A DNA stretch of 64,000 nucleotides from Buxus sempervirens (lineage: Eukaryota; Streptophyta; Magnoliopsida; Buxales; Buxaceae), in assembly GCA_947561395.2 (NCBI GenBank), contig OX387190.1, positions 21,446,858 to 21,510,857 of the forward strand. Reading direction: 5' to 3'. The notes beneath the pieces are model-generated. The model searched no databases, was not told where the DNA came from, and saw only the letters and a program-made list of their open reading frames with translations. Numbering within the stretch: the stretch's first letter is position 1; each line of letters opens with the position of its first letter. Below, piece after piece: positions 1 through 57,372 of the stretch. The position numbers were made by a program, and so were the translations under genes.

Positions 1-68
1 AACAATCATCAAAAATCATTATCTCCTGGAAAGCCAGCACAGAATTTGAAGAAAATAAATTTTTGCCT

Positions 69-210
69 GTATCCGGATACTCAATCCGGATATAAGTGCT
101 CCTCCCCGTATCCGGATAATCATACCGGTACGTGTGAGCCTTAGCGTATCCGGTACCATGTACCGGATACCTTAAGGCCCTTTGTTATCCGGTCTGATGT
201 ACCGGATACC
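69..210. promoter_or_regulatory. Array of four 25-bp inverted repeats in U3
   Basis: Units start at 69, 108, 146 and about 185, a period of 38-39 bp. Each is a pair of TATCCGG / CCGGATA arms around a short loop. Unit 3 is the most complete, with arms GTATCCGGTAC and GTACCGGATAC around a 3-base loop. The array lies about 155 bp upstream of the TATA box. The same array occurs in the 3' LTR (18532-18673) and beside both antisense genes. A transcription-factor or enhancer role is inferred. Confidence 0.85.
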
Positions 211-365
211 TTAAGTTTGCTCAAAATTAGGGTTTTCCGAGAGCTTTTCACTTTTACCATCATGTCCCTCATTAAATGAAGGGAAATCGCGGAAATAACC
301 TTAGGGTTTAGGTTGGAGGGGTTCTAGACATTAAGTTGTGTCTACCAATGACCTTAGCCTTTGCC

Positions 366-373
366 TATAAATA
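366..373 (+). promoter_or_regulatory. TATA box of the E1 5' LTR
   Basis: TATAAATA in the context CCTATAAATAGGAGCC, a classical plant core promoter. The same box is at 18830-18837 in the 3' LTR and at 43829-43836 in the related solo LTR. Confidence 0.8.
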
Positions 374-2257
374 GGAGCCTCCTCCTTGAGCAAATGGCAC
401 ACAACTCTTGTTTTGAATTCTCGCAAAGAAGAACTCCAAGAGAAGAAGGAAACCGCTGTGGAATCGCCTCCAGCACTCAGGTAAGCCTCAACTTTTCTTT
501 TTATTTTTTGTCTTTACATTCCTAGATCTAGATCTCTTCTTCTACCTTTCTGTAGTGTAAAGCCTTGTTTGCATGTGTGGAAATCCTTCCCCGGCTCAAA
601 GTATCTCAAGACTCCCCTAGCCGTAAAACGTGAAGGCGGATCTAGGAGAAACGAGACTGGGGATTGACCCTAGTGCTAGAACCTATGTAGCATAAGGCCT
701 TTTTGATTGATTGTAAACCGTTCCATATTCAAAGTACCCTTGATTATCTTAAAGAGAACAGAGGGAAACGATAATGGAACGGAACCCTAGGCTATGCTAG
801 AACCTATTTTATTGAATCTATATGCATGTGTATGGATCTTGCTAGGTTTTTTTCACTTTTGCACACATATCACTATTTTGGCGGGATAGGCTCATATTTG
901 GGTTTATTGCATTTATTGTGATAAATCTCAAATAAATGGCCTCAATCAATTCTGGAATGCCTTTCGGATGATTTTGAAGTATTTGTGTTCATCTTACATG
1001 AATTTCATTTTTTATCAATTTTCGGATTTGGTTTTTACTCAAAAATGGCTTAGCTTGACAGCACCTGTACCCCTACTTCGGACGTCCTTAACTTCATCAT
1101 CCGGATGAATTTTGGGACGATTCTAGAACCATGGGAAAGGTGAGGCTGTCTAGTTTATGTCCACCAAATTTCACAAATTTCTATCTAGCCGATTTTTGAC
1201 ACCTCTCTGTCGAAGTTAAGTGGACAGTTCAGGTCCAAGTACAGAACTTGTCACTTCGACGGACCGCCATGTGTTTGTTTTATGTCCGATTCGAGTGATT
1301 TTTATTTCTGAGTACTCCTTTATGAGTCTATTTTCAAATCCAGTTGGTTTCATAATTTTTGAACTCCATTTGAATTATTGGTAGCCGATTTACTCAGAAC
1401 TGCTCATTTGCATTTTTCTGGGTAAATCTGTGATCTTCGGGGCCTGTTCGGGAGACCACCCAAGGCACACCCGAAGGGATTTTTGTATGAGGCTCGTTTC
1501 TATGAAAAGATGGCCATATAAACTTCAATCACACCAAATTTCACGGATTTCTATGTAGTGGAGTTTTCTAGACAATTTTCCAAAGTTGCCCACTTACCAC
1601 TTTTTCAAAATCCCCAACAGCAACTTTAAAGGAGTATAACTCCTAGATTTCTCACCGGAATGAAGTGAAATTTTGCATGAGACTCTTGTTTACCCTAATC
1701 TTTCAAATGGATTTGGTTTGGTTCAATTCAGAATTGGATTTGAATGATTTCAAGACAAAGGATCTTACTTTTTACCAAAATTCCCGGATTTGCCTCAACT
1801 TGGTTTTTGCCACTTTTGCTTTGATTTCCATCTTTTGAGATATTCCAGAAGTGATATTGACATAAGAGATGATCTAAAATCCATTTAGATCTTAATGTGA
1901 AAATATCATACATTGTTCCTTTTTCAAGGCTTTTTCATGATTTTTAGCAAGCTTTCTTACATTATTTTTTGCATGAACATACACTTGGCAACCACTTCGT
2001 GTGGATGAATGGGGGTGCCTAACACCTTCCCCCGTTCATAATCTAATCCCCTTACCCATCTCTGGATGTGATTTTTTAAGTAGGATTATTTTTTATCCTA
2101 GAATGTTTCTTTTGGCTATTTTTGCATACTTTTGAATCTTTGGTGTCCATTCTCACCCCAAAATCATGAATGGTGGCGACTCTCCCAACTTTTGCGTTGA
2201 GCCCGTGTGTTGACGGAGGGACGATCACTCCGGTGAATTTTTCGCATGTCTCACAAC

Positions 2258-2276
2258 TGGCGACTCTGCTGGGGAC
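2258..2276 (+). other. Primer-binding site of E1, tRNA-Arg type
   Basis: TGGCGACTCTGCTGGGGAC begins 2 bp after the LTR. It starts with TGG (complement of CCA) and resembles the complement of a plant tRNA-Arg acceptor/T-arm end, the primer known for Ogre elements. I compared it with tRNA-Arg from memory only. Confidence 0.8.
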
Positions 2277-2536
2277 TTGTGGATTTAAGCCTTTTTGTAT
2301 TTTGTTCATGCTTTCTTTACTTGTGAATGCTTGCTATTTTACTTATGTTATTTGTGCATATTTTTGTATCTTGAAATCTGATTGGGATACTTTGAAATCT
2401 AGATGGATAAAGGCATGCGTATATGGTGGTATTATGCTTAGGATCATGTTTATGGCCTTATCTTGTTGTGCATGTCTACTTGTTTTTTTTTTGTACCTTG
2501 TTTTAGGAGGTTTTAGTGCCATGTTTTGAGCACGAA

Positions 2537-3385
2537 AATAATGAGCACGAAAAAATGAAAACCTTGGTTGGTTATTTTTATCAATCAAATCAAAAAAAGT
2601 GGGACACTTGGAAGCCCTAGAATATTCCATGAAAACCTTGGTTGGTTATTTTTATCAATCAAATCAAACAAAAAAAAATGAAAACCTTGGTTGGTTATTT
2701 TTATCAATCAAATCAAAAAAATTGGGACACTTGGAAGCCCTAGAATATTCCATGAAAACCTTGGTTGGTTATTTTTATCAATCAAATCAAACAAAAAAAA
2801 ATGAAAACCTTGGTTGGTTATTTTTATCAATCAAATCAAAAAAATTGGGACCCTTGGAAGCCCTAGAATATTCCATGAAAACCTTGGTTGGTTATTTTTA
2901 TCAATCAAATCAAAACATTTGTGGGATACTTGGATAGAGTAGTCCAAGACACCTTTGGTTTGTTATTTTTATCAATCAAATCAAAACATTTGTGGGATAC
3001 TTGGATAGAGTAGTCCAAGACACCTTTGGTTGGTTATTTTTATCAATCAAATCAAAACATTTGTGGGATACTTGGATAGAGTAGTCCAAGACACCTTTGG
3101 TTGGTTATTTTTATCAATCAAATCAAAACATTTGTGGGATACTTGGATAGAGTAGTCCAAGACACCTTTGGTTGGTTATTTTTATCAATCAAATCAAAAC
3201 ATTTGTGGGATACTTGGAAGCCCTATAATTTTCCAAGACACCTTGGTTGGTTATTTTTATCAATCAAATCAAAAAAATTGGGACCCTTGGAAGCCCTAGA
3301 ATATTCCATAAAAACCTTGGTTGGTTATTTTTATCAATCAAATAAAAAATTTATGGGACCCTTGGAAGCCCTAGAATATTCCAAC
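2537..3385 (+). repeat. Tandem repeats in the E1 leader
   Basis: About twelve copies of a core (TTGGTTGGTTATTTTTATCA followed by ATCAAATCAAA) fill the untranslated leader between primer site and gag. Four copies starting near 2951, 3022, 3093 and 3164 are spaced exactly 71 bp apart. Flanking copies have alternative tails, and two tail types (ending in a 'ggaagccctagaatattcc' or a 'gatagagtagtccaagac' block) alternate in groups. Short reading frames here only read through the repeat. Role unknown; leaders of Tat elements are often repeat-rich. Confidence 0.85.
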
Positions 3386-3499
3386 ACAAAATCAAAATAA
3401 AAAAAAAAAAACAAACAAAAAAACAAAAAATCAAAAAAATCTGGATTGGTGTTCACCTAACCTACTGGTTTACATATATAGGGGTGTGACTCAAGTTAA

Positions 3500-6400
3500 A
3501 TGGAAGCTAACATGTTTTATTCATTTTTTACTCAGGTACATTTACACTTATTTGCAGTCATAGCTCCCGTGACCAGATCCAAAGCAAGAGCCATGAATAC
3601 TGAAGAGAACCAAGCCCAAGCTACCATCCCCGCTCAGGACTTTACTCAGCTGCAGGAGCAAGTGGCCGGTCTGGCCAAAATGCTGGGAGACTTACTGGCG
3701 GCTCAGGCCCAGCAGGCCCAAGCCCCGAACCAGGCATCTACTTCCCATCAGGCACCACCACCTCAGGCCTACATTCCGCCTCCGGTTCAGCCCATGCCTG
3801 AGCCCATTTCTGAACCAGTCCCTGAACCCATTCTGATCAGGGAAAATATGGCGGAGTCTGAGAAAGAGCTGGAGAAAGAAAAGGCCCGAGATGAGATGGA
3901 AAAGAAGATGCTGCTGAGGATAGAGAGGATTCAGGCAGAGCTGAAAGAGGTGAAGGGGGGAGGCAGCCATGCAGGCACCACCTTCGAAGACCTGTGCATG
4001 TACCCGGACGTCTGTCTACCGGCTAAGTTCAGGTGCCCGGATTTTGACAAGTTTGATGGCACGGGCTGCCCATTAAGCCATCTGAAACTATACTGCGGGG
4101 CCCTGTGCCAGTTTGGCCGGGACGATGGAATACTGATCCAGCTCTTCCAGAGGAGTCTGACCGGGTCAGCCCTTCGGTGGTTCGCTACAGTGGACCATGG
4201 AAGGATTAGAAGGTGGAAGGACTTGGCCGATGCTTTCCTGGACCAATATAAGTTCAACTCTGAGATCGTGCCGGACCGGTACGACATGATGAGGATGACC
4301 AAGGGGAAGGATGAACCGGTACGGCAGTACGCCAAAAGATGGAGAGAGGCCGCCTCCCAAGTCAGGCCACCTATGCAAGAGCCGGAGATGATCTCCACCT
4401 TTATGGGCACACTGGGGCAGCCCTTCTACAACCATCTGGTGGGTCAGATAACCACCAACTTTGCGGCCCTGGTTCAGGTGGCTGACCGGATTGAAGAAGG
4501 GGTCAGGTCAGGACGGCTGATAGACTACTCTACTCTGACTGGGCAGTCTGATTCCTCTGCCTCCATGGCCCAGAAGAAAGGGGCCGGATTTAAAAAGACG
4601 GGGGCCCGAAAAGAAGGAGAGGTGAACCTGGTCCAGGCTCCTCCAGCCAAGAAGCCACTGCACGTGAACATCTCGGCACCCCAACAGGCCCAGCAGGCCC
4701 AGCAGTCGTACCAGACCCCGCTGAATGTCAACTTCCCTCCCTCTGTGCCAGCTAACACAAGGAGGACTTTTTCTAAGGAGGAGCGGGATGCCTGGTTCGC
4801 AGCAAGAAAGAACCGGGTTTTCACCCCTCTACCAATATCTCTTTCCCAACTATTGCCAACCCTGCTAAAGGGTGAATACTTGACTCTGAAAGAGCCCAAC
4901 CCGAATGCCACCAGGGGGAGAAATTTTGATACATCGGTCACCTGTGATTTCCACATGGGTGCACCGGGGCATTCTACTGATAACTGCTGGGTGCTGAAGC
5001 ATGCGGTCCAGGACCTGTTGGACCAGAAGGCTTTGGTCTTTAACACTGCTGCACCCGCCCAGTCAGGAAATGATATTGGGCAGAATCCTCTGCCTTACCA
5101 CAATGGGGCAGGCCCATCCAACTCCATCACTGCCATATCTACCACCAGAAGGGCCTTTGACCCATCACAGCTCATAGCTCCCGTGGGGACCACGGTCCAG
5201 GTCCGATTTTTCCCAGAGGAGGAAGAGGAGGAGATCAACATGGTCTCCCAAAAAAATAATACAGCTGCTGAGGATATAAGTTCCTCTTTGAACCGGGTCT
5301 CATCTCTTATGACCCAGATGAATACTGCAAGGCCCGCATTGGTCTTCAATTGCAGTCCACCCACTTATTCTCCATCCAAGCCATCCAAGGCTCCACTGGT
5401 CATCAATCTTGACCCCACCACTGCTTCCATCACTTCTTCTGTCCCCACAAAATCCAAACTTCAACCCCTGGTTGTAAATGTGCAGCCAGCCCATACTATC
5501 CCTAAACCGGCCCATACATCCCGGTCCAAACTCCTGCCACTAGTGGTTGACATCCCTAAATTAGCCTATTCAGAGGCCGTTGTACCATGGAACTACAGCG
5601 AGGGAATCACGGCTACGGTTCCAGCGGTTAGAAACCTGAACCAGGAGGAGGTGAACCTCATGACGAGGTCAGGGAGATGTGCAGGGGGTGAAGAGAAAGA
5701 AAAAGAGACAGAAGTGGAGAAAGAAAAAAGAGAAAATGAAGAAAAAAGAAAACAGAAGGGAAAAAATAAAGTGGGAGAAGACACCCCCCAGGGTGCAGAA
5801 AATGAGGCAGCAGACCTCATAAAAATAATAAAAAAGAGTGAATTCAATCTTGTGGATCAGCTAAACAAGGTCCCGGCCCAGATTTCAATACTGGGCCTTT
5901 TGCTGAATTCTGAAAAGCACAGGGATGCATTGTTAAGGGTGCTACAGAGTGCACACGTATCCCAGACCATTGATCCAGACCAGCTTGGTAAAATGGTTGG
6001 TCAAATCTTGTCACATAATGTGATAAGTTTCTCAGAGGGTGAGATCAGCCCAGGTGGGTGTTATCATGTGGACCCTTTGCACATCACTGTGCTTTGTAAG
6101 GGCTGCATGGTTGCACGGGTTTTAATCGACAACGGGTCAGCGTTAAACGTTTGCCCGTTAATCACTTTTACCAAGCTGGGTCTGGACCAGTCAAGGATCA
6201 AGCAAAATGGGCGGATAGTAAGGGCTTTTGATAGCTCCAAGACCCACTCCCTAGGGGAGATTGAACTGCCGGTCACAATTGGGCCGAATATCTTTAACAT
6301 CACATTTGAGGTGATGGATATACCCGCAGCCTTCAATCTGCTCCTAGGAAGGCCGTGGATACATTCGGCTAGGGCAATACCATCCACGCTCCACCAAAGG

Positions 6401-7318
6401 GTGAAATATGTAAGAGGGCAAAGGGTGATAACAGTCCTAGCCGAAAACTTGGTGCCGCCCATTGTGTCACCTGATGTACCCTTGATCAATGTGGACCTAA
6501 CTGTCGACAAGATTGCATTCCACTCATTTCAATTTGAGGCGGTCAATTACATACCTGGGGGGTGTGAGAAAAAGAGAGAAAAGGGGACCACTGCAGAAAG
6601 GATGGTCAAGAAAGTGATGGAGAAATACCACTTTCACCCAGGGAAAGGCCTGGGGATCAATCTGCAGGGGATGGTGGAGCCAATCACGGCTAAGAAACTA
6701 ATCCCCAAGGTAGGGTTGGGCTTCAAGCCCAGAGGCTGGAGAAGAATGAAGCACGAAGAAGGGGAGAGCAGAAGCAAAGGAAAACTCCCTCATTTAAGGG
6801 AAAGTTTCCCTAAACCCGCTTATATAATCCAAATTTCTCCTCCTATGGACCAATCAAAACCCCCATACCGAAATGTCAACCCATTTCAGAAGCCTGTTGT
6901 TTCGGCCCTACAACCCTATAACCCATCTCCAATACTGGGAGCAGCAGATGGGCCTGGACCACAGCCCGAGCAGCAGGTGGACTTTTCTGAAGATGTTGGT
7001 GCATTCTTCGCCATGACTGAGGGCGAAAAGACAGGGGTAGACATGGAACTACCATTCATTGACTGGGCCGCAGTAAAGGTTCCAGACAAGGTCATTTCTG
7101 AACTGGGCCCTGCAACAGAAAAGGGCAGTACCCACCCGGTGATGATGGCATCGGAAGCTGGGCTTGAGGAGCGGGCTTTCCCTATTTCCCCTGCTCCCCA
7201 AAATTTTGTACTGAACAATTGGGAGGAAACTCCCCTTACCTTTGAAGCAGCGTTAGTTCGGCAAACTGACGCGGCTTCCAAAAAAAAAAACTCCAATAGT
7301 GGATTGCCATTTCCCTGA
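3500..7318 (+). CDS. gag-pro: E1 gag-protease polyprotein
   Basis: A 1272-residue open frame. Residues 45-80 are Gln/Ala-rich and may form a coil; a Pro-rich stretch follows, then a charged helix (about 115-150). Residues about 170-340 are a retrotransposon gag domain (FDKFDG, ALRWF, DLADAFLDQYKFN, QYAKRWRE). A His/Cys-containing segment (CDFHMGAPGHSTDNCW, near 495) is an atypical zinc-knuckle-like site. The aspartic protease lies around 860-975 with the active site VLIDNGSALNV and the later LLLGRPWIHSA motif. Residues about 1035-1085 contain a glycine-rich G-patch-like motif (FHPGKGLGINLQG, GLGFKPRGW). The frame ends just after an A11 run at 7280-7290, where pol continues in another frame. 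The natural start is uncertain: residues near 22 (IAPVTRSKAR) look like a former MAPVTRSK start with ATG changed to ATA. Confidence 0.9.
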   Translation: MEANMFYSFFTQVHLHLFAVIAPVTRSKARAMNTEENQAQATIPAQDFTQLQEQVAGLAKMLGDLLAAQAQQAQAPNQASTSHQAPPPQAYIPPPVQPMPEPISEPVPEPILIRENMAESEKELEKEKARDEMEKKMLLRIERIQAELKEVKGGGSHAGTTFEDLCMYPDVCLPAKFRCPDFDKFDGTGCPLSHLKLYCGALCQFGRDDGILIQLFQRSLTGSALRWFATVDHGRIRRWKDLADAFLDQYKFNSEIVPDRYDMMRMTKGKDEPVRQYAKRWREAASQVRPPMQEPEMISTFMGTLGQPFYNHLVGQITTNFAALVQVADRIEEGVRSGRLIDYSTLTGQSDSSASMAQKKGAGFKKTGARKEGEVNLVQAPPAKKPLHVNISAPQQAQQAQQSYQTPLNVNFPPSVPANTRRTFSKEERDAWFAARKNRVFTPLPISLSQLLPTLLKGEYLTLKEPNPNATRGRNFDTSVTCDFHMGAPGHSTDNCWVLKHAVQDLLDQKALVFNTAAPAQSGNDIGQNPLPYHNGAGPSNSITAISTTRRAFDPSQLIAPVGTTVQVRFFPEEEEEEINMVSQKNNTAAEDISSSLNRVSSLMTQMNTARPALVFNCSPPTYSPSKPSKAPLVINLDPTTASITSSVPTKSKLQPLVVNVQPAHTIPKPAHTSRSKLLPLVVDIPKLAYSEAVVPWNYSEGITATVPAVRNLNQEEVNLMTRSGRCAGGEEKEKETEVEKEKRENEEKRKQKGKNKVGEDTPQGAENEAADLIKIIKKSEFNLVDQLNKVPAQISILGLLLNSEKHRDALLRVLQSAHVSQTIDPDQLGKMVGQILSHNVISFSEGEISPGGCYHVDPLHITVLCKGCMVARVLIDNGSALNVCPLITFTKLGLDQSRIKQNGRIVRAFDSSKTHSLGEIELPVTIGPNIFNITFEVMDIPAAFNLLLGRPWIHSARAIPSTLHQRVKYVRGQRVITVLAENLVPPIVSPDVPLINVDLTVDKIAFHSFQFEAVNYIPGGCEKKREKGTTAERMVKKVMEKYHFHPGKGLGINLQGMVEPITAKKLIPKVGLGFKPRGWRRMKHEEGESRSKGKLPHLRESFPKPAYIIQISPPMDQSKPPYRNVNPFQKPVVSALQPYNPSPILGAADGPGPQPEQQVDFSEDVGAFFAMTEGEKTGVDMELPFIDWAAVKVPDKVISELGPATEKGSTHPVMMASEAGLEERAFPISPAPQNFVLNNWEETPLTFEAALVRQTDAASKKKNSNSGLPFP

Positions 7319-10300
7319 AGGTTCTAATGGGCCTTCGTCTTCAGGGGAATTATGTTTAGAAGGCCCACAAAAAACCCAAAAAGATTTTTCGATTTTTTCT
7401 AGGAAATTTAAATTTTTCAAAAAGGTCCAAACCACTTATGAACCATATAATCAGACCGAATTGGACCAGGTTGAATATGACTTCGACCTTGAGCTCGACT
7501 TTGATCTCATGGGGGTCGAAGAAGAGACCGAGGTCGAAGAAGAAGACGTTCCAAAAGAAATTGAATACCAATTGGAACGTAATGAAAAAGGGGTCCAACC
7601 TAATATTGAGGAGACCATACCCATAAACCTTGGGACCAAAGAGGACCCAAAAATTGTAAAAATCGGGTCATGCTTGTCTGATGTGCAGAAAAATGAAATG
7701 TCACAATTCTTGGCAGACTACAAAGATGTGTTCGCTTGGTCATATCGGGACATGCCGGGGTTGGACACGGACATGGTGGTGCATAAGTTGCCAATTTTGC
7801 CAGGGGTTAAGCCGATTAAGCAGAAGCTGAGAAGATTGAAACCTGAATGGACTCTGAAGGTCAAGGATTAAGTGGTCAAACAGTTCCAAGCTGGATTTCT
7901 GGCAGTCTCTACGTACCCTGAATGGCTCGCAAACATAGTGCCGGTACCAAAGAAGGACGGGAAGGTCCGAATGTGCGTGGATTATAGAGACTTGAACAGG
8001 GCAAGCCCAAAGGACGATTTTCCGCTTCCACACATCGACATTCTGGTCGATAATACTGCGGTACATAGCCTGTTCTCTTTTATGGATGGGTTCTCGGGAT
8101 ATAATCAGATCAAGATGGCTAAGGAAGATCAAGAGAAAACAGCATTTATTACACCTTGGGGCACATTCCACTACACGGTCATGCCATTTGGGCTTAAAAA
8201 CGCTGGGGCAACATACCAGCGGGCCATGACTGCACTATTTCATGACATGATCCATAAGGAGATGGAGGTCTACGTGGACGATATGATTGCCAAATCATGC
8301 AAAGAGGAGGACCACTTGATCAATCTGAAGAAGGTGTTTGATCGGCTCAGGAAGTACAGTCTACGGCTTAACCCGGCTAAATGCGTCTTTGGGGCTACAT
8401 CAGGGAAGTTACTGGGGTTTATAGTGAGCCGAAGAGGAATTGAAATTGACCCGGCAAAAGCCAAGGCCATAATTGAAATGCCAGCACCCAGAACCGAGAA
8501 GGAGGTCAGGGGTTTTCTTGGAAGGATTCAATACATAAGCCGGTTCATAGCGCAGCTCACTGCTATCTATGAACCAATTTTCAAACTTTTGAGGAAAGAT
8601 AACCCGACGGTCTGGAATGAGGACTGCCAGCAGGCATTTGATACAATAAAGAGGTATTTACTGAACCCGCCGGTACTAGTGCCACCAACTCCAGGAAGAC
8701 CACTGATCCTGTACTTGTCAGTGTTGGAAACGTCGATGGGATGTGTCTTGGGGCAGCATGATGAGACTGGTAGAAAAGAAAGGGCAATTTACTATCTGAG
8801 TAAAAAATTCACGGAATATGAAGCCAAGTACTCACCATTGGAAAAGACTTGCTGTGCTCTAGTGTGGGCTACTCAGAGGCTAAGGCATTATTTCCTTAGT
8901 CACTCCACACTATTGATATCCCGGATGGACCCGCTGAAATATTTATTTGAGAAACCGGCACTGACTGGCAGAACGGCTAAGTGGCAACTACTACTGTCCG
9001 AGTTTGACCTCACATATATCACCCAGAAGGCGATCAAGGGTCAAGCCATAGCTGATCACCGGGCTGCACATCCTTTGCCAGAATATCAACCCTTGAAGAC
9101 CAACTTCCCAAATGAAGCAATTCTGTACACTGAAGAGGAAGACAGTGAGAGTTCTTGGCAGATGTTCTTTGATGGGGCCGCCAATATGAATGGGAACGGA
9201 ATAGGGGCAGTCTTGGTTAAACCAGATGGTTCACACATCCCAATTGCAGTAAAGCTGAGATTCCAGTGCACCAATAACATAGCAGAATATGAAGCATGCA
9301 TAATTGGATTGCAAGCAGCCATGGATCATGGAGTAGAGGAACTTGACGTATACGGGGATTCGAGTCTTATCATCTTCCAAACAACTGGTGAGTGGAAAAC
9401 CAAGGATCACAAATTGATCCCCTATCACCAGTATTTGGAAGAAATAAGCACAAATTTTACTCGAATTTCCTTCAACTATATGCCAAGGGCCAAGAATCAG
9501 TTTGCGGATGCTCTAGCAACCTTGGCTTCAATGGTCAGCATATCAGAAGGAGTAGACATCAGACCACTGGAAATTGAGGTCCGAGATGAACCGGCTTACT
9601 GTCTCGTTCTAGAGGGAGCACCAGAAGAAGAAACACCATGGTTTCAAGATATCAAAAATTTCTTGAACAATCGGAGTTTGCCAGAAAATGCCACTGCTAC
9701 TGAGAAGAGGACAATACAGAGATTGGCTGGTCAATTTCTGTTAAGTGGTGGACATGTGTACAAGAGGTCATATAACGACATTCTGCTAAGATGTGTTGCC
9801 AAGGCTGAATCGGAAAGGCTGATTGAGACTGTACATGGAGGAGTCTGTGGGCCCCATATGAGTGGGCACATGCTGGCTAAGAAGATCCTGAGGCTGGGAT
9901 ACTACTGGACAACCATGGAGCATGATTGCTGTATACATGTCAGGAGGTGCCATCAATTCCAAATCTATGCAGATAACAAGCATGCACCCCCTGGTGAGCT
10001 GCACAACATGACATCACCCTGGCCCTTCTCTATGTGGGGCATAGATGTCATCGGCATGATCTCCCCTAAGGCATCGAATGGGCACAGATTCATCTTGGTG
10101 GCAATTGATTATTTCACTAAGTGGGTGGAAGCAGCTTCATATGTGAACATCACAAGCAACCATGTTATTAAATTTTTGAAGCACAATATCATTTGTCGCT
10201 ATGGACTGCCAAATGCCATAGTATCCGACAATGCTTCAAATATTAAGAACAAGGACATGAAGAAAATTTGTGAGCAGTTTCAGATCACCCATCATAAGTC

Positions 10301-10886
10301 AGCTCCGTACAGGCCAAAGATGAATGGGGCAGTGGAAGCAGCAAACAAGAATATAAAGAAAATCATCCAGAAGATGGTAGTGAGCTACAAAGATTGGCAT
10401 GAAATGCTACCACTTGCTCTACATGCCTACAGAACCTCGATCCGGACTTCAACTGGAGCAACCCCGTACTCCTTAGTCTATGGGATGGAAGCAGTCTTGC
10501 CCGTGGAAGTAGAGATCCCTTCACTCCGAGTGCTCATGGAAGCAGAACTAGAAGAAGCTGAATGGATCCAGTCAAGACATGATCAACTTAACCTGATAGA
10601 AGAAAAACGGTTGAAAGCAATTTGCCATGGACAGTTGTACCAGAAGAGAATGGCCCGGGCTTACAATAAGAAAGTGAGGCCCAGAACTTTCCAAGAAGGA
10701 GACTTAGTGCTAAAGAAAATTCTACCATTTTTGGAAGACCCTCGTGGTAAGTTCAAGCCCAATTGGGAAGGCCCATATGTCGTCAAGAAAGTCCTGTCAG
10801 GGGGAGCACTCATCTTGGCAGAAATGGATGGGTCAGATTTTCCTGAGCCCATTAACTCTGATGCGGTAAAAAGGTATTTTCCTTGA
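7299..10886 (+). pseudogene. pol: E1 pol: RT, RNase H, aRNase H, integrase (one internal stop)
   Basis: The frame is +1 relative to gag-protease and overlaps it by 20 bp. 7299-7868 encodes an acidic linker and the start of RT (VFAWSYRDMPGLD). A TAA at 7869-7871 (LKVKD*VVKQFQ) interrupts RT without changing frame, then 1004 codons run to 10886. RT: YVDD at 8271-8282, PFGLKNAGATYQRAM just before it. gRNase H follows, then an archaeal-type RNase H (FFDGAANMNGNGIG, NNIAEYEACIIGL, YGDSSLI) that is diagnostic of the Tat lineage. Integrase keeps the D-D-E residues (GIDVIG, VSDNASN, GAVEAANKN). Its zinc domain has CHQFQ where CHxCQ is usual, so the last zinc ligand seems lost. The protein ends SDAVKRYFP, a typical Tat pol end. 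Confidence 0.9.
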
Positions 10887-11824
10887 GTGAATATTTCTAG
10901 GAAATGATCCGAGGCCATTTTTCTTTATTTCCTTCAAAAATTTTAATCCCTAGTCTAGCCAAGTTGAGCCGGTTCGTTTCTTTGATAAACCCAAACCGGA
11001 TTTACAGTCTTAAATTGGAGCAAAACAAATTGGGGCAAAGTAAGGAAAGAAAAAGAAAAAGAGAGGAAAAGCAATGGAAATGGCAAATGAAAGCCAAGTG
11101 TGAAAAAAGATGCAAAAAATGCAATTTGGGGAAAAAGGGTTAAATTCATCATGACTGTAAGTCCGGTTGACCTATTTCCACACTTGAAAATTTTTGGGCC
11201 TTTAATACCCTTTCTTTCATAAACTGAGCCTAGCCTTTATTTCGTCCTATTTTTAAGCCCTCGGTGATCTTAGCTTGTTCATTCAAATATCAGAGTAAGA
11301 TGGGTGATGACGGAATTCAGAAGCCGGCCCTAGTGAAAACCGTAACTGGCGCTAGGGGCAATATTGGCAAAAAGGCAAAAAGAAAAAAATAAGAAAAATG
11401 AAAGAAAATCAGAGGTTGAGTTGATCATGGGGATCTGAGCCTTAAGCAAAATCGGCATGAGCAGAATGGGGACAGTTTTGGCATTTGGGGATGACTCTAA
11501 AGGTCCTAAGATGGACGGCTCTGATCCCTCAGTATTTTGTGGACTACCCTTTTCATTATTTAACCTGGTTTTAATTCCTTTAATTATAGGTGATTAAGTG
11601 CATGGACCAAATTTCAAAAAATACAAAAAAAAATATAAAAAGGAAAAATTATACTTTGGCCAGTGATGAGAAATCAAATACTTTTCATAAAACCTTTGTT
11701 TTTACAAGCATCTGAGCATTCTGAGGCCAATAATATAAAAACTTTATTTTGAATTAAAACCTTTGTATTTCCACTATTGGAGTTCAATTTTGTACAAAGG
11801 TATGAAAATGTGCAGGAAATAAAG
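10887..11824. other. Non-coding spacer between pol and antisense gene B
   Basis: This 0.94-kb stretch is A-rich, with degenerate purine tracts and only short reading frames of low-complexity composition. It separates two convergent transcription units (pol on +, gene B on -), so it should hold both 3' ends. I see no conserved motif. Confidence 0.6.
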
Positions 11825-13479
11825 CTAATCCCTATCTCCTAGCCGCTCCTCAAGCTCCCGAATCCGAGCTGCCTGAGCTGCAATGACTCCTGAAGCCCCC
11901 TCTGCAGCGGGATCACTCAGGAAGGAAATGACCTCATCTGAAAGGGCTTGCTTAATCCGCATACCCCTAAGGCTGGCCAAAGTATCCTGGTACTTCTGTC
12001 GGATCATACGGACCTCAAAGCGACGGGCCTGCCTCTGCTCCTCCAGCTTTTCTTCCACGGCAATACGGCGGGAGATCTGCTCCTCAAGCTGCCTCTCCAG
12101 ATAAGCGCCCTGTATCCTGAGCTCCTGGGCCTCCCGTACCCATATCTGCTGAAGCCGCTTATGAGAAGCCCGCTCAGACTCTAGAATGTCCTCATAGGTG
12201 GGAGCCAAGACTACAGGAGGATCTTCGGGTACCGGGGCCTGAGTCTGTATCTGCTCCTTGATCCAGAAGAGATAATCCTTCACATGGGCTTCTGAGAAGA
12301 CTGGACCATGCATAAAGCGGACATAGGACCACTCCTTCATCAACCAGGCATTTAGCTTCATAGAAAGGGGCCCAAGACGATCCTCATATCCACATGGGAT
12401 GATAATCCCCTGGGTCGCACGGAACTGACGAAGGACCCGCAGAGGAAGATACAACACTGCATGCTTCAGGCCCGCTAGGATCAGAAAGTTGCGGTCACGG
12501 AAGCTAATCACTGTCTCTGCATTGGGCTGATAAGTACCAGGCCATCTCACCTGATCATCCTGAAGCGAGCCCAAGAAAGTGAACCAGCCCTGTTTGCCCC
12601 CTGGAATATCTGGACACCCCCGATTGCTCATCAAGATGGGGACCTTCAAACTCGGGAAGAAGTGTCGATTGATTTCTTCAATCTGGCTCAAATGATCAAG
12701 TAGCCAAAGCTGCAAAGAGAGAGAGAGGTGTCAGCACATTGTATAAAAAAAAAAAAAAAAAAACTTTTTACCTGCAGAATCTGGGCACATGCTAGGAAGC
12801 GTTTCGACTTCCTATTGTAGCAGTCGGTTAAGGCCTGATATATCCCAGCTAAAATCATAGGGGCCAACCTCTCCCGCTCCCTAACCTGGCATATCACGGA
12901 AATCAAGGCCAAGTCCACCTCGTCATCCTCCCGTGGGAAAAGCAACTGGTTGACCACTATCAGGGTCAACGCATTGAATCGGGCCTCCTTATCTTCTCCC
13001 CTCAAAAGCTTCTCAGTCAAAAAAGCCTTAGATAGGGTCAAAAGGGTGTCAGAATCCCCCAAGTCCTTCTTCCCTATGCCCAAAAAAGTAGAAGCTTCCT
13101 TTTTGTAACTGGGCCTTAGAGGTGGATTCACCACCTTCTCATCAAACCTCAGGCCCAGGATGGTTTCCACCTCTTCAATGGTTGGGGTCATCTCATGGGT
13201 CCCAAAACGGAACAAGTTGAGATCAGGAACCCAATGACCAATCATGGCCTCTATAATCTCCCACCTAAAGGGAACCTTGGGAATGAGCAGGGTATGGCCT
13301 AGATTGGTAGTACCCCATCTTCTCTCCTCATCTAGGGACATAGAGTTAACCCACCTTGTGTAAAAGGAATCCACAGGGTTGTACCTAGTGAGATTTGGGG
13401 GTTTTGATCTAAAAGGCTGTTTTGCAGGGGAGGCAGTGTGGACAGACAATAATGGGGCAGAAGATGATCCGGATTCCAT
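11825..13479 (-). CDS. Antisense gene B: DUF7745/PMD-like protein with C-terminal coiled coil, two exons
   Basis: Exons read 13479-12772 and 12709-11825, joined by a 62-bp GT-AG intron with a T20 tract, giving 530 residues with no break. The start MESGSSSAP is chosen because it follows a TATA box (13591-13597) by about 110 bp; an in-frame extension to 13572 exists. Residues 1-236 contain FRFGTHEMTPTIEEVETILG, typical of PMD/DUF7745 proteins, and the exon junction falls in the family-like segment KRFLACAQILQ/LWLLDHLSQ. VLYLPLRVLRQF follows. The last 110 residues are a charged heptad-rich helix (ERQLEEQISRR, ARIRELEERL). It lies antisense to E1 between pol and the 3' LTR, head-to-tail behind gene A. 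Such extra genes occur in Tat elements; molecular function unknown. Family name is by eye. Confidence 0.78.
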
Positions 13480-13590
13480 TGGATTTGACGGGAGCAAGCT
13501 AGAACTCAAAAGGAGGAAGAAAAAGGCGAAAAAGGGGGTTTCTAAACTCAAAAACTCGTAAAAAATGCCCAAATCCCGAGACTGGTTGCA

Positions 13591-13748
13591 TTTATAGCAT
13601 CTTTTAACATATCCGGTAACTCAGACCGGATACAAAGGCTTTGGTAATATCCGGATAAGTATACCGGATACAAGGATCCCATGAATATCCGGTATAACAT
13701 ACCGGATACAAAGACCAATCCATGTATCCGGTATGTCAGACCGGATAC
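13591..13748 (-). promoter_or_regulatory. Promoter of antisense gene B: four palindromes plus TATA box
   Basis: On the minus strand CTATAAATG (TATAAA at 13596-13591) lies about 110 bp before the gene B start codon. Immediately upstream, four 25-bp inverted repeats sit at 13609-13633, 13647-13671, 13685-13709 and 13724-13748 (period 38, 38, 39 bp), with the same TATCCGG / CCGGATA arms as the LTR array. The nearest unit ends 12 bp from the TATA box. Confidence 0.82.
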
Positions 13749-13954
13749 CGAGAAAAAATGCAAAAAAAGAGCTAAGGATGAAAAAATCCGAATTTTTTAC
13801 CTGTTTTACCTGCTTACAAGTCATAATTGCATAGAATGGAAGGCAAAAGATGTGCAAGACATGATAGAATGAATAAAAAGTTTTTTCATATATATCTGAA
13901 AGTTTTTGTACAGGGATGATAAAAATACATGAAAATGAAAAATATAATCCTAAT

Positions 13955-16636
13955 CTACTCCTGTGCAGGATCATCCCCGCGTCCTCGGCTGCGTCCACCT
14001 CTACGGCGTCTCCCCCAAAGGGCTCGGCCTCTAGAGTATGCAAGAATCCGCTCGGCCGCATGGCGAGGATGCCGACCCACCACCTGCTGAAGATGATACT
14101 CCAAGCAATAATCCTCGAGATCCGGGGGAGGAGCAGGAGTAGAATCGGGGGAAGAAGCCTCGGGCTCAGCAGCAACCGGCCCAACTGGGCCCTCATCCAA
14201 AGCATCCTCTGCTCACGCAGCTCCAGAAGGCCCAGCATCAGCAGCAGAGGGGCCAGGATCAGAAATAGCTGAGTCCACAGAAAAGAGAAAAATCAGAAGA
14301 TTCAGATATAAGGAAGAATAAAAGAGGAGAATGAAAAGAAGATCATACCAGGAATGTCTACAGAAGGAGCAGGGGGATCCGGCTCGTCAGGATCAGCAGC
14401 TGGGACATCCACAGGATCAGAGGCCCGAGCAGGAGATGGGTCAGGAATCAGGAAATCATGCTCAAAGAAGGCATCCTGATCATGGACCGGGCCCTGCACA
14501 AGTCAAACAAGCATATCAGAATAGCAGAAACAGGAAAATAATGAAAGAAATGAACATATGAGAAGGCCAGATACCTGTCTAGACTGGAGCTCAGCAACTA
14601 GGGCCTCCAGCTCCCTGATCCGGGCATCCCGCTGGGCCACGACCGCATCATGCTCCGCGATCATATCATCGATCGCAGCCCGCTGGCTCTCGAACCGGTC
14701 CCGAATGGAGTTCAGCTCGTGTACCTGCCAATAAGAACGGAAGCATGGTCAGAAAGGCATAAGGAAGGAAAAGAGGATAAAAATGGGAAGAGTACAAGGC
14801 TTACCGTGTCCTCATGGATCCGGATACGGATCCCGCCAATCTCAGTCACCCCAGCACGAGTGGGTCGATCCATCAAGCATCCGATAGACACCCGCTGGAA
14901 CCACTCGTCATAATCTCCAGCTACTGTAAGCCCCTCCGCATCCAAGAAGTGATCGAACTGATCAATATCAAAGCCCGGGAGGAGTGTGTCGGGACCCACA
15001 GCAGGAGGAGGGACGGGGATGCGAAGTGCGCCAGTGTGCTGGTAGTACAGGCGCTCTCCCAAGTACATCACCCTACCAAGCCTCCCAAGGAAGCACTGGT
15101 AAGGCTGACGTCGGAGATCTCTCTCAAAAGCATCCTGTACTGCCATCTCACGGGCAACTCCGACATCCACGTCATCTGGACGGGATGGAATGAGCTGCAA
15201 AGAAGCAAAGTGGTCAGATACAGTCAAGATACAGGAAAGAAAATAAAAGAAAAAAATAGAGGACTTACATCAGATCGGCGTGCACGGTCTAAGTGCACCC
15301 GAGCGGTACGAGGCTGGCTCCTATCGGCATCTCGAACCTGGGCCGACCATCGCAGGGCCACAGGGAAATCCGCAACCTCAGGAACCGGGGAGGGGCGGAA
15401 GAAGGTCATGTAGGTGTACATGAACACCTAGCAAAAGAAAAATCAGTCAAGAAAAGATAAAGCCTAAAGAATTAAGCTAGACAGATGAATGCAATACCTG
15501 TAGAATCTGCCAGAAGAACCGGCTGCTGACTCCATCGCCTCTCGGGGATGCCAGACCTCGAACTGCCCGGCACAACCCGGCCAAGATGGTCCCATAAATG
15601 AGCCGACCCCATGCTAGCTGGCGGGTCTGATGGAGATCTCTCAAAGCGTCCAGGAAAAGTGGGCTGACGCCGGTCGTATCCTCCGGGAAAAAGCAGCTCC
15701 CAAGCATCAGCAGGAATACGTGCCGGAAGATAGGAATAAATGCAGCATCATCCACAGCCACAGTCCTGTGCCTCCCCTCAAAATGTCGAGCCAGACTCTC
15801 CCGCAACCAACTAATGGAGAGCCGGCCACTCCGCCCATCCCAAGCAGTAGGAGGCAGGGCCTGATATCCCAGGAGAAGTCCCATATCCTCCGCAGAAGGC
15901 CGCTCCAAGACGATGGTCCGCCCCGTCAGAGGAATGCCAGTAATCATCACAAAATCGGAGGGGCGGATCCCCAGCTCCACGTCCGGCAGGTGGAACGACT
16001 GTGTCTCTGGAAAGTATCTCTCCATCATGGCAAAGATGAGTGGACGGTCGGCTCTGAATGATGGAATGCTGAGGAAGTGATCCAGATGACACCTCCCAAA
16101 CTCCCGCCTGAGTGCTGGAGAAAGCGACTGAGCTAGATCACTAAATCTGCCCCAGCTACCTCGTAAGTGGGAGGAATAATAGGGAAGCGGCACATCTGCC
16201 CGGATGCACATAGAAGGATGGCTATCCAAGCCATGGAGGAGCTCTGTATCATGCACAGAGGCCCTCAACTCCTCAGGAACTCCTGCAAGGGCTACAGCAA
16301 CCCCCTCCGGAGCCATATCTCTGGCTCTGCCTCGGCCTCTAACACGGCCTCTCTCGCCCTCAGGGGCCTGATCCTGAACCCGGCCTCTGCCTCGGCCTCG
16401 ACCACGAGCGGGTGCAACCACGGGCTGAATTGCAAAGGAACAGCGTGAAGATTTGTACAAGGAAGAAAGAAAGAAAGAAAAAAATTTTGAAAGCCTACCT
16501 CAGCAGAGCTCTCTCGAGAGACATCCAATGGCTCAGACAAGGTGGCACTGGAGCTCGCCTCTGTCCGAGCCCGCGAACTGGAGGGCTGATCAGCTGGGTC
16601 AACCTCCTCTCTAACTCGGGAACGACCCCTAGCCAT
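13955..16636 (-). pseudogene. Antisense gene A: PMD-like protein, seven exons, one in-frame stop
   Basis: Exons by GT-AG junctions and frame continuity: 16636-16499, 16424-15498, 15427-15269, 15194-14805, 14724-14575, 14493-14349, 14268-13955. The first five are whole numbers of codons; the sixth leaves one base, completed by the seventh. This totals 740 codons plus stop. Exon 1 is Arg/Ser-rich; exon 2 starts with RG repeats, then a PMD-like domain (GRCHLDHFLSIPSFRADRPL, SFHLPDVELGIRPSDFVMIT). Exons 3-4 continue the domain, exon 5 is a coiled coil (RDARIRELEALVAELQ), exon 6 is acidic and Pro-rich, exon 7 ends in an RGRGD-like basic tail. A TGA at 14215-14213 breaks exon 7, though it lies in GC/GTGAGC, which could be a splice donor. 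Otherwise intact, implying recent or selected coding capacity. Confidence 0.75.
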
Positions 16637-17797
16637 CTACACAGGGAAGTGTTTTATAAATTTCAAAGTTGGCTTTGCTTATGGTGCATATCTAGTTTTA
16701 CATGATTATTTTTCGAAATTATGGGAATTTTACCTCACCTAAGTTACCTCTAAAGTGTTGAAGTGAGGAATATTTCTGTTTCTAATCTTGAAACATTTTC
16801 TAAAAGATTCCTACAATACTTAACATTTCCTGTATGTTATGGTTCCAGGATATGAGAAGCGGGAAGGTCAAGGCATCAAAAGCAAGCAGAATTGCAGAAA
16901 TCCAGATTGGACAGTTAATTAAGAAAAATTCATAGCAAAAGGGGGAGTAAGCAAAAGCTTGTAAATCCACTGGCAGTTAGTACATACATCAAGAAGGAGC
17001 AAGACCAGAAAAACAGATGTGGCATCAAGGCTGGAAAAGCCTACCGTGAACCATCCGATTGGGGATTGGCACAGGAACAGTTCTAAAGAATTGTGGCAAC
17101 ACCAAATTAGGAAAGCAAAGTTTGTTCTAACATACAAAATTGGCATGCGAGCAACAGGAAATCATCAGTTCATATCAGCAGCAGATAGTCCAAAATTCTG
17201 AGATAGCATTAATTCAAGGATACCACAAAAGAAGAAAGAAATCATGATCATAGCAAAGCACAAGGCATTAAGTCTGAAAAGTTTCAGCAGCAAAGAACTA
17301 GGCCGAAAATGGTTCATCCAAGAATTCAATAGCAAATGAAAGGTCTGAATCCTTCTTGCCTAGGGGAAGTAAGTGATCAGATGAAATTAACAGAAAATTC
17401 ATAGAACAAGTGGCAATTCGGCATGAACAAGAAAATACATAAAGATGCCCAGTTGCACTTACTGTTTGATGGGCAATAGAGAAAGTGAAATTGGATTCCC
17501 GGAGTTCAAAGAAGATCACCGGAGCAAAGGCAATGATATTGGATTGAGAGAACCCCCGAAAATGGGAAGAAATCGAGCTAGGGCTCGACTGCAGCTGTCA
17601 ATGGCCGATCACTGAAGTCGCCGGAGTCGCAGGACGTCGCCGGCAGCAATAGGAGTCGCCGGAGTTGCTGGAGCTCGCCGGAGAAGCAGGACGAGTCGTC
17701 GGGTGAAGAAGAAGAAGGAGATGGCCGGTCTGAGTTGTCGGAGACTGAAGAAAAGAAATGAAAAGTCGCGGTCGCGCGCGACTTAAGTAAACATGCG
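16637..17797 (-). other. 5' leader region of antisense gene A, probable 5'-UTR exon and intron
   Basis: Read on the minus strand, 17770-17580 is a CT- and CCGG-rich stretch like a plant 5' UTR. At about 17470 there is a candidate donor (CAAACAG followed by TAAGTGC, or AACA/GTAAGT), and the rest to 16637 is AT-rich like an intron. Short open frames here do not resemble proteins. The assignment rests on composition and on position between the palindrome pair and the gene A start. Confidence 0.45.
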
Positions 17798-17861
17798 GGA
17801 TCCGAATACTCAGGCCGGATACCCGCAGAGCCTTCATTATCCGGATACACCTACCGGATAC
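17798..17861. promoter_or_regulatory. Two palindrome units upstream of antisense gene A
   Basis: Units at 17798-17822 and 17837-17861 are 39 bp apart and have the TATCCGG / CCGGATA design (the first has one mismatch in its left arm). They lie just upstream, on the minus strand, of the probable 5' leader of gene A. No TATA box is evident between them and the leader. Confidence 0.7.
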
Positions 17862-17862
17862 C

Positions 17863-18033
17863 AAAGAAAAAAGAAAAAAAATAGAAAAAAGCAGAAAAAA
17901 ATAGAAAAAATAGAGAAAAAAACAGGGAAAAATAGAAAAAAAGAAAAGAAAAGAAGAAAAGAAAAAAAAAGAAAAAAAAAAAGAAAAAGAAAAAAGAGAA
18001 AAAGAAAAGAGAAAAGAAAAAAGAAAAGAAAAA
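17863..18033 (+). repeat. Purine-only (A/G) tract
   Basis: About 170 bp of almost pure AAAAAG-type sequence. Read on the + strand it gives a Lys-rich frame, which I treat as low complexity. It directly abuts the palindrome pair, so on the gene A strand it is an upstream polypyrimidine tract. Confidence 0.85.
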
Positions 18034-18057
18034 GCAAACTTGTGCTACAACTTCTAT

Positions 18058-18275
18058 TTTCTCTCAAAATCCTATTTTTGTCTTGAAATCCACCTCACAG
18101 CCACGAGAGCTCTGTGGAATTTAGGACAACCTTGGGAAATGTGCCTGGTCAAAAGGATGATATCCACTCAATTTTCAACTTGGTTTGATAAAAAATCAGT
18201 TTTTCAAAAATCCTATTTTTGGGCTTAAAATCCACTTCACAGCCACAAAGGGCTCAGTGGAATTTAAGAACTCTT
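18058..18275 (+). repeat. Diverged duplication of about 80 bp near the 3' end of E1
   Basis: The stretch from about 18066 (AAATCCTATTTTTG ... CACAGCCACGAGAGCTCTGTGGAATTT) recurs from about 18208 with small differences. Both copies contain a hairpin-like CACAGCCAC...GTGG segment. It lies between the purine tract and the polypurine tract. Confidence 0.6.
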
Positions 18276-18428
18276 GGAGAGATGCCCCCTTAAAGTGAGG
18301 GCTTTTTGGCAAATCTCCACTCAAAAATGGTTTTCTACAGAAATTGAATTAAACCGAGCAAATCATGCTCAAGAGAATGCAATTTGGGCTTGTCTACTCT
18401 TTGCAGCTCACTGCTTCGCAGCTCCCAC

Positions 18429-18441
18429 AAAGAGGGGCAGT
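18429..18441 (+). other. Polypurine tract of E1
   Basis: AAAGAGGGGCAGT directly precedes the TG of the 3' LTR and is the expected plus-strand primer position. Confidence 0.75.
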
Positions 18442-20716
18442 TGTAGACACCCCAAATTGCACAAACAATCATCAAAAATCATTATCTCCTGGAAAGCCAG
18501 CACAGAATTTGAAGAAAATATACTTTTACCTGTATCCGGATACTCAATCCGGATACAAGTACTCTTTCCCGTATCCGGATACTCATACCGGATACGTGTG
18601 AGCCTTGGCGTATCCGGTACCATGTACCGGATACCTTAAGGCTCTTTGTTATCCGGTCTGATGTACCGGATACCGTAAGTTTGCTCAAAATTAGGGTTTT
18701 CCGAGAGCTTTTCACTTTTACCATCATGTCCCTCATTAAATGAGGGGAAATCGCGGAAATAACCTTAGGGTTTAGGTTTGAGGGGTTCTAGACATTAAGT
18801 TGTGTCTACCAATGACCTTAGCCCTTGCCTATAAATAGGAGCCTCCTCCTTGAGCAAATGACACAACTCTTGTTTTGAATTCTCGCAAAGAAGAACTCCA
18901 AGAGAAGAAGAAAACCGCTGTGGAATCGCCTCCAGCACTCAGGTAAGCCTCAACTTTTCTTTTTATTTTCTGTCTTTACATTCCTAGATCTAGATCTCTT
19001 CTTCTACCTTTCTGTAGTGTAAAGCCTTGTTTGCATGTGTGGAAATCCTTCCCCGGCTCAAAGTATCTCAAGACTCCCCTAGCCGTAAAACGTGAAGGCG
19101 GATCTAGGAGAAACGAGACTGGGGATTGACCCTAGTGCTAGAACCTATGTAGCATAAGGCCTTTTTGATTGATTGTAAACCGTTCCATATTCAAAGTACC
19201 CTTGATTATCTTAAAGAGAACAGAGGGAAACGATAATGGAACGGAACCCTAGGCTATGCTAGAACCTATTTTATTGAATCTATATGCATGTGTATGGATC
19301 TTGCTAGGTTTTTTTCACTTTTGCACACATATCACTATTTTGGCGGGATAGGCTCATATTTGGGGTTTATTGCATTTATTGTGATAAATCTCAAATAAAT
19401 GGCCTCAATCAATTCTGGAATGCCTTTCGGATGATTTTGAAGTATTTGTGTTCATCTTACACGAATTTCATTTTTTATCAATTTTCGGATTTGGTTTTTA
19501 CTCAAAAATGGCTTAGCTTGACAGCACCTGTGCCCCTACTTCGGACGTCCGTAACTTCATCATCCGGATGAATTTTGGGACAATTCCAGAACCATGGGAA
19601 AGGTGAGGCTGTCTAGTTTATGTCCACCAAATTTCACAAATTTCTATCTAGCCGATTTTTGACACCTCTCTGTCGAAGTTAAGTGGACAGTTCAGGTCCG
19701 AGTACAGAACTTGTCACTTCGACGGACCGCCATGTGTTTGTTTTAAGTCCGATTCGAGTGATTTTTATTTCTGAGTACTCCTTTATGAGTCTATTTTCAA
19801 ATCCAGTTGGTTTCATAATTTTTGAACTCCATTTGAATTATTGGTAGCCGATTTACTCAGAACTGCTCATTTGCATTTTTCTGGGTAAATCTGTGATCTT
19901 CGGGGCCTGTTCGGGAGACCACCCAAGGCACACCCGAAGGGATTTTTGTATGAGGCTAGTTTCTATGGAAAGATGGCCATACAAACTTCAATCACACCAA
20001 ATTTCGTGGACTTTTATGTAGTGGATTTTCCTAGACAATTTTCCAAAGTTGCCCACTTACCACTTTTAAAAATCCCCAGCAGCAACTTCAAAGGAGCATA
20101 ACTCCTAGATTTTTCATCGGAATGAAATGAAATTTTGTACTAGACTCTTGTTTACCCTAATCTTTCAAATGGATTTGGTTTGGGTCAATTTAGAATCGGA
20201 TTTGAATGATTTCGAGGCAAATGGTATACTTTTTACCAAATTTTCCGAATTTGATTTAACTTGGTTTTGAGCAATTTGTGCTTTGATTTCCATCTTTTGA
20301 GATATTCCAGAAATGATATTGACATAAGAGAGGATCTAAAATCCATTTAGATCTTCATGTGAAAATATCATACATTAATCCTTTTTCAAGGTTTTCTATG
20401 ATTTTTAGCAAGCTTTCTTACTTTATTTTTTGCATGAACATACACTTGGCAACCACTTCGTGTGGATGAATGGGGGTGCCTAACACCTTCCCCCGTTCAT
20501 AATCTAATCCCCTTACCCATCTCTGGACTTGATTTTCAAGTAGGGTTATTTTTACCCTAGAATTTGTCTTTTGGCTATTTTTGCCTTACTTTTGAACTCT
20601 TTGGTGTCCATTCTCACCTCAAAATCATGAATGGTGGCGACTCTCCCAATTTTTGCGTTGAGCCCGTGTGTTGACAGAGGGATGATCACTCCGGTGATTT
20701 TTTCCCATGTCTCACA
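18442..20716 (+). repeat. 3' LTR of E1 (2275 bp)
   Basis: It begins TGTAGACACCCC and ends TCTCACA, matching the 5' LTR. The four palindromes are at 18532, 18571, 18610 and 18649, exactly 39 bp apart, and the TATA box is at 18830-18837. The first and third palindromes are more perfect here than in the 5' LTR copy. Confidence 0.95.
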
Positions 20717-20718
20717 AC

Positions 20719-20730
20719 TGGCGACTCTGC
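20719..20730 (+). other. Primer-site remnant beyond the 3' LTR
   Basis: Two bases after the 3' LTR the sequence reads TGGCGACTCTGC, identical to the first 12 bases of the E1 primer site, then diverges. A normal 3' LTR should be followed by host DNA. This looks like the stump of a second internal region. Confidence 0.7.
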
Positions 20731-45924: not shown

Positions 45925-45929
45925 ACAGT

Positions 45930-49427: not shown

Positions 49428-49438
49428 ATCTCCCCCTT
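49428..49438 (-). other. Polypurine tract of the copia element
   Basis: On the minus strand AAGGGGGAGAT directly precedes the 3' LTR. Confidence 0.85.
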
Positions 49439-57359: not shown

Positions 57360-57370
57360 CTCTGATACCA
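57360..57370 (-). other. Primer-binding site of the copia element (initiator tRNA-Met)
   Basis: On the minus strand TGGTATCAGAG lies 2 bp after the 5' LTR, the standard copia primer site. Confidence 0.92.
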
Positions 57371-57372
57371 CT

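Follow-up and report, generated by a model that had tools for sequence, protein, structure and literature searches.

Why should one phased palindrome recur in the long terminal repeat (LTR) of a retrotransposon and again at the promoters of two genes that the same element carries on its opposite strand? The question is raised by a 64,000-nucleotide stretch of the Buxus sempervirens genome (GCA_947561395.2, contig OX387190.1, positions 21,446,858 to 21,510,857), which we call the window and which forms part of contig C12 in a genome of 676.5 Mb and 247 contigs. The element, E1, has two antisense genes, A and B, between pol and its 3' LTR. The original prediction held that palindrome arrays in the LTR U3 and upstream of both genes serve one DNA-binding factor, or that an antisense product binds the LTR in a feedback loop. 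In our analysis a factor that would be common to the LTR and both antisense promoters, acting on DNA, is well supported, because the palindrome arms are conserved, their phase is fixed and the same arm change is found at separate sites of a diverged family, E2. Binding by a gene A or B product, with a feedback loop as its result, is a possibility.

Each E1 unit reads TATCCGG-N9-CCGGATA and thus spans 23 bp rather than the 25 bp first proposed. Units follow one another in a 39-bp phase, and the predicted period of 38–39 bp was correct. Exact units stand at all the predicted sites (Table 1), with one damaged unit in the 5' LTR. The gene B array does lie close to a TATA box, at 13 bp instead of 12 bp, and the loops and spacers of the different sites are, by eye, not copies of each other, in agreement with the claim that the surrounding sequence is unrelated. 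TATCCGG occurs 36 times in the window (3.5 expected), a number reached in none of 100 shuffles. A detector that uses no motif (units of 23 bp, arms of 8 bp pairing at 7 or more positions, a 38–40 bp period, three or more units) found no array in 20 block-shuffled windows. The shuffles, this detector and the reversed-pattern control described below rule out a chance origin of the arrays. The detector also flags an unrelated 40-bp tandem repeat, TCTAAAAG...TTTTAGA (L028, near 3414355 on contig C1).

Genome-wide there are 28,399 exact E1 units and 5 matches to the pattern read backwards. An 11-base loop in place of the 9-base loop gave 3 matches (control 2). Facing arms at exactly 39 bp were found 17,900 times (control 0), and 30 other spacings combined gave 4,009 (control 62). 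Among 50 listed matches at these other spacings, 46 are the 39-bp period read off a second CCGGATA inside TATCCGGATA; three have a 38-bp and one a 40-bp period. We then counted each unit once among the matches listed (90 units, reaching 5.9 Mb on C1). All but one of 58 neighbour gaps of up to 150 bp are in the 39-bp phase, and eight of the 90 units have no other exact unit within 150 bp. E1 units are common, yet they are common as phased arrays, and so the prediction stands against the possibility, raised with it, that the unit occurs widely without phasing. It stands equally against the possibility that other copies lack one of the sites: the B and A arrays are present in all five further E1 copies fetched across both, and the four of these fetched with both LTRs, all on C1, carry arrays in both.

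Unlike the window copy, the same four C1 copies have an additional array in the 5' leader (L025 4279–4418, with equivalents in L028, L031 and L039). Its first unit reads TAACCGG...CCGGTTA in three of the four copies, altered on both sides. Neither a TATA box nor a long open reading frame (ORF) was seen beside it in these copies. A different palindrome, GGGTTTCCGG...CCGGAAACCC, lies about 100 bp from TATCCGG units in two places (L002 near 29317081; L035 near 5921356).

The arms are the part retained in all array types. When eight E1-type LTRs are compared in pairs, the arms diverge by 1.8% (28 of 1,568 arm comparisons), the loops by 22.4%, the spacers by 23.0% and the flanks by 12.0%; the alignment also included f_L001 and f_L003, which do not enter these rates. 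Arms are likewise the least variable part of the B arrays (arms 1.4%, loops 8.9%, spacers 14.1%, flanks 7.4%), the gene A arrays (4.8%, 13.0%, 20.8% and 12.7%) and the leader arrays (3.6%, 11.6%, 9.7% and 8.8%). The B and A rates exclude L024, which is near-identical to the window, and the A rate also excludes L040, where the stretch ends early.

Another LTR in the window, of the related family E2, is about 72.6% identical to the E1 LTR over the U3 part and 84% farther on. It carries four units at an exact 39-bp period. Position 7 is altered in all eight arms, and none of the 48 other arm positions is; with an E2 gene A promoter added (position 7 altered in 4/4 arms), the other positions remain at 0/72. 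Position 8 is C in all 12 E2 arms examined. The genome holds 5,483 exact E2 units and 3,432 E2–E2 neighbours at 39 bp, both with a control of 0. One-sided E1/E2 hybrid units number 2,670, where free combination of arms would give 11,092, and mixed E1/E2 neighbours 1,712, where 6,980 are expected; family structure contributes to both deficits, which serve here solely to set E2 apart as a distinct family rather than decayed E1.

The E2 motif recurs at two sites of one element. L044 (C1:9627700–9629100) is part of an E2 element that includes the LTR start with its array and, about 0.75 kb apart, a gene A promoter region 72.7% identical to window 17556–18460. Both arrays have the E2 motif. Both gene A units match exactly, as does one LTR unit; the other three LTR units have decayed, but A at position 7 followed by C at position 8 is seen in all eight LTR arms. 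An E2 neighbour pair lies 4.3 kb farther, where the gene B array of four E1 copies lies at 4.02–4.45 kb (from coordinates), and an LTR array sharing the two loops of L044 is found 30.7 kb off (from coordinates and printed matches). When 48 clusters were placed at random, the mean numbers of pairs at the A–LTR, A–B and B–LTR distances were 0.05, 0.10 and 0.11; we observed 1, 1 and 2, and single random draws reached 2, 3 and 2. L044 was picked for its A–LTR pair, so that this count is not independent. Across the genome, E2-type arms occur at the gene A promoter anchor in 52 places (E1-type 442) and E2 units upstream of TATAAAT in 80 (E1-type 1,486), all with controls of 0. The first five E1-type TATAAAT places are gene B promoters of C1 E1 copies, four of which were fetched. 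Among the matches listed, 0/19 E2-type B sites had an E1-type A site and 0/1 E2-type A sites an E1-type B site. For comparison, the E1-type A sites listed on C1 below 38.6 Mb number 22, of which 17 have an E1-type B site at 4.0–5.9 kb; however, only 17 of 100 listed E1-type B sites have an E1-type A partner, and the zeros are weak for this reason. Taken together, separate sites appear to change their motif jointly.

Both antisense genes encode a plant mobile domain (PMD, PF10536; Pfam 1.1e-18 for gene A and 8.4e-20 for gene B), and at E ≤ 0.01 Pfam finds PMD and DUF7745 only. The ratio of non-synonymous to synonymous change (dN/dS), for two exons per gene between the window and five other copies, is mostly 0.03–0.12, and gag and pol are alike. 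Exceptions are values of 0.42 and 0.00, where few changes separate the pair, and two comparisons that lack any synonymous change. Exon matches below 85% coverage were skipped, codons with gaps or stops were excluded, and the exon borders were placed by inspection. By this measure genes A and B are under purifying selection, and therefore both proteins were selected for function during the spread of the element, although some individual copies bear stops. They are the sole accessory genes seen in E1. By eye both proteins have heptad-rich C-terminal parts, which could form coiled coils. Used as queries, gene B and one exon of gene A retrieved three distant PMD proteins: P0001 (from Solanum), P0002, and P0003 (from Camellia).

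By domain content and order, E1 is an Ogre-like Ty3/Gypsy element. The lineage (Ogre, within Tat) is recognized by a second RNase H (aRH) between RNase H and integrase, also a Retand trait, by a PMD-encoding extra ORF and by gag and reverse transcriptase–RNase H–integrase in separate ORFs. All three were found, the extra ORF in the form of genes A and B. The E1 LTR is 2.3 kb long. Tandem repeats of 71 and 123 bp occupy the leader ahead of gag (window 2550–3388). Immediately upstream is another copy, L024 (C12:21437000–21446900), whose 3' LTR array precedes the 5' LTR array of the window by 2,262 bp, about one LTR length, and the two copies seem to be arranged LTR to LTR in tandem. An E1 derivative (L037/L038, C1:3380000–3399999) has about 10 kb between its LTR arrays and retains the arrays of the LTR, the leader and gene A; no match to pol or gene B was found there, and gag and gene A matched as fragments only.

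Table 1. Features of E1 and E2 in the window
Feature	Position	Strand	Remarks
E1 5' LTR	1..2269	+	first ~20 bases outside the window; 95.9% identity to 18464-20730
E1 U3 array, 5' LTR	70..208	.	units 70, 109 (right arm damaged), 147, 186
gag ORF	3500..7318	+	Pfam Retrotrans_gag, G-patch
pol ORF	7872..10886	+	order RVT_1 (reverse transcriptase), RNase H, RVT_3-type second RNase H, rve (integrase)
Gene B	11825..13479	-	exons 13479-12772, 12709-11825; 530 aa; PMD + DUF7745
Gene B TATAAAT box	13590..13596	-	13 bp from array
Gene B promoter array	13610..13747	.	units 13610, 13648, 13686, 13725
Gene A	13955..16636	-	seven exons; PMD; in-frame stop near the C terminus in the window copy
Array upstream of gene A	17799..17860	.	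units 17799 (two mismatches), 17838
E1 3' LTR	18442..20730	+	starts TGTAGACACC
E1 U3 array, 3' LTR	18533..18672	.	units 18533, 18572, 18611, 18650
E2 LTR	43431..45927	+	taken as a solo LTR; another Gypsy pol runs on both sides
E2 array	43533..43672	.	TATCCGAC-N7-GTCGGATA; units 43533, 43572, 43611, 43650

The same altered letters at separate E2 sites suggest that a protein made by the element recognizes the palindromes. Since families within one host have different motifs, and the change is joint across the sites, the element itself would be the simplest source of the factor, and genes A and B, both PMD genes and both under purifying selection, are the natural candidates. The probable explanation, in our judgement, is an element-encoded factor, most likely a PMD protein acting as a dimer, that jointly controls the LTR and the antisense promoters. 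Each 23-bp palindrome would be read as DNA, probably by one dimer, and several dimers would sit side by side at 39 bp. The protein of gene A, gene B or both would supply the factor, so that the element steers sense transcription from the LTR and antisense transcription of A and B together, probably by activating the promoters or shielding them from silencing. The leader array would be served by the same DNA-reading factor. Factor and motif would change together, each family reading its own sites. That PMD proteins bind these sites, dimerize and activate or counter silencing is what we infer; activation or anti-silencing is favoured because an array lies just upstream of a TATA box and because VANC proteins offer a precedent (PMC5735166).

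Several results weigh against an element-encoded factor or narrow the case for it. Pfam identified no established DNA-binding domain in the proteins of genes A and B. E2 is known here from its DNA sites. L044 is the single E2 element for which two sites were read; its gene B array is placed by coordinates, and its LTRs are 30.7 kb apart as opposed to 20.1–20.5 kb in four E1 copies. Among the matches listed on C1 and C3, E2-type A and B promoter sites form no pair, and the counts of 52 and 80 places therefore show recurrence per site and not linkage within elements. Hybrid units and mixed neighbours do occur. A more distant family (L035/L036, pol 70% identical), to which arrays were assigned by adjacency only, has the E1 motif, so that motif change does not simply track divergence. 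Contact of the host PMD proteins MAIN and MAIL1 with chromatin is left open in the available text of PMC9899485.

The palindromes might instead be bound by a host transcription factor or silencing protein, with the E2 motif read by a paralogue or as a tolerated variant; the element would then exploit a binding site of the host for expressing its sense and antisense genes together. The position of the arrays just upstream of TATA boxes resembles that of host activator sites, hybrid units and mixed arrays are tolerated, and host PMD proteins have been tied to a promoter motif (PMC7156037). We nevertheless regard a host factor as unlikely. Two families in one host have different motifs in thousands of copies each, with the same change at separate sites, and a shared host factor does not explain this joint change. 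The element's own protein could also bind the arrays to repress, the antisense product limiting both the LTR and its own synthesis as a form of copy-number control. The evidence at the sites is equal for this and for the activating element-encoded factor, and sequence does not separate the two. Repression is favoured by the role of host PMD proteins in silencing, as described for MAIN and MAIL1 (PMC5418596), but amplification to 28,399 exact units is unlike strict self-repression, and we consider a repressing role distinctly improbable.

Near-perfect inverted repeats with a regular period are also what would be expected if the palindromes worked by structure, as a cruciform, an RNA hairpin or a phasing signal for nucleosomes. 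However, it is the letters of the arms that are retained, not just their pairing, a 39-bp period matches neither nucleosomes nor whole turns of the helix, and the gene B array precedes the TATA box, beyond the limits of the predicted gene B transcript. A structural role is highly improbable on these grounds, and the RNA hairpin as the main role is ruled out by the place of the gene B array and the retained arm letters. The chance is similarly slight that the arrays are a passive record, copied between sites and, in E2, changed by decay of methylated C. TCGGATA does differ from CCGGATA by C to T, hybrids exist, and the gene A array of the window copy has taken one such hit. Yet two-sided E2 units outnumber one-sided ones (5,483 and 2,670), the opposite of independent decay, which rules out E1-to-E2 decay; C stands at position 8 in every E2 arm examined, and the different sites are, by eye, not mutual copies in their loops and spacers.

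Elsewhere in the window, a direct repeat of about 1.05 kb with 98.4% identity (48384–49431 and 57366–58413) possibly represents the LTRs of another young element. A near-palindrome of about 1.4 kb lies at 36953–38385, with arms 90% identical and related copies at 27.8–28.9 kb. The 222-aa ORF at 23344–24012 on the minus strand resembles, by eye, the end of what we take to be a MULE-type transposase with a zinc finger.

Parts of this arrangement have counterparts in described systems. Ogre elements have a PMD extra ORF in 57% of cases, a second RNase H before integrase and two ORFs (PMC6317226), and E1 resembles them in its PMD extra ORFs, in the second RNase H between RNase H and integrase and in its division of gag and pol; the available text of that paper describes neither target sites for the extra ORF nor promoter arrays. 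Retand elements share with E1 the antisense ORFs between pol and the 3' LTR, there of the TRP28 type, for which a DNA-binding regulatory role has been suggested (PMC11963269). Their domain is a different one, PF04195, and no target site common with the LTR is described in the accessible part of the report. Among host proteins, the MAIN/MAIL1/PP7L complex and the DOWN motif tie PMD proteins to a promoter motif and to silencing of transposable elements (PMC7156037, PMC9899485); these differ from E1 in being host genes with another motif (CATGCAGTTT in the MORC1 promoter). Gypsy-specific PMD-A clades are in print (PMC5418596), and it has already been suggested that transposable elements may employ PMD proteins for counter-silencing (PMC8616336). 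The molecular activity of PMD is described as unknown (PMC8616336), as is the function of the antisense ORFs of plant LTR retrotransposons (PMC7264820). In the open-licence literature searched we found no target sequence for a PMD-type protein in an LTR retrotransposon, no earlier report of arrays common to an LTR and antisense promoters, and no work joining PMD or Ogre with LTR palindromes; matches listed for TATCCGG with retrotransposon were unrelated by title.

We put forward tentatively, as a possibility still short of an even chance, that PMD proteins encoded by Gypsy elements regulate as dimers that bind DNA sequence-specifically, either activating or countering silencing, and that they co-evolve with the phased palindrome arrays of the LTR, the leader and the antisense promoters in a self-contained trans-acting circuit. 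If so, such DNA readers would have relatives in the MAIN/MAIL silencing proteins of the host. A candidate DNA target, with paired variants in E1 and E2, makes the function of the antisense ORFs and of PMD directly testable, and this one motif fills tens of thousands of sites in the host genome.

VANC proteins form the DUF1985 family. The gene A and B proteins, with PMD and DUF7745 by Pfam, are not of the VANC family, although the E1 system may work like VANC. The motifs bound by VANC proteins stand in tandem and vary from one related transposable element to another, and the likeness to the VANDAL elements of Arabidopsis lies in an element-encoded accessory protein, short tandem motifs in non-coding parts and family-specific motifs (PMC5735166). 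E1 repeats a short motif in its non-coding parts, and the motif differs between the related families E1 and E2. VANDAL is a DNA transposon, and its motif is not described as palindromic in the available text of that paper. E1 belongs to the LTR retrotransposons, has two antisense PMD genes and bears phased palindromes in the LTR itself. It is possible that the E1/E2 system is the LTR-retrotransposon counterpart of VANC anti-silencing; if this is true, motif-guided self-regulation, known from VANDAL, would extend to a class of DNA that is among the bulkiest in plants.

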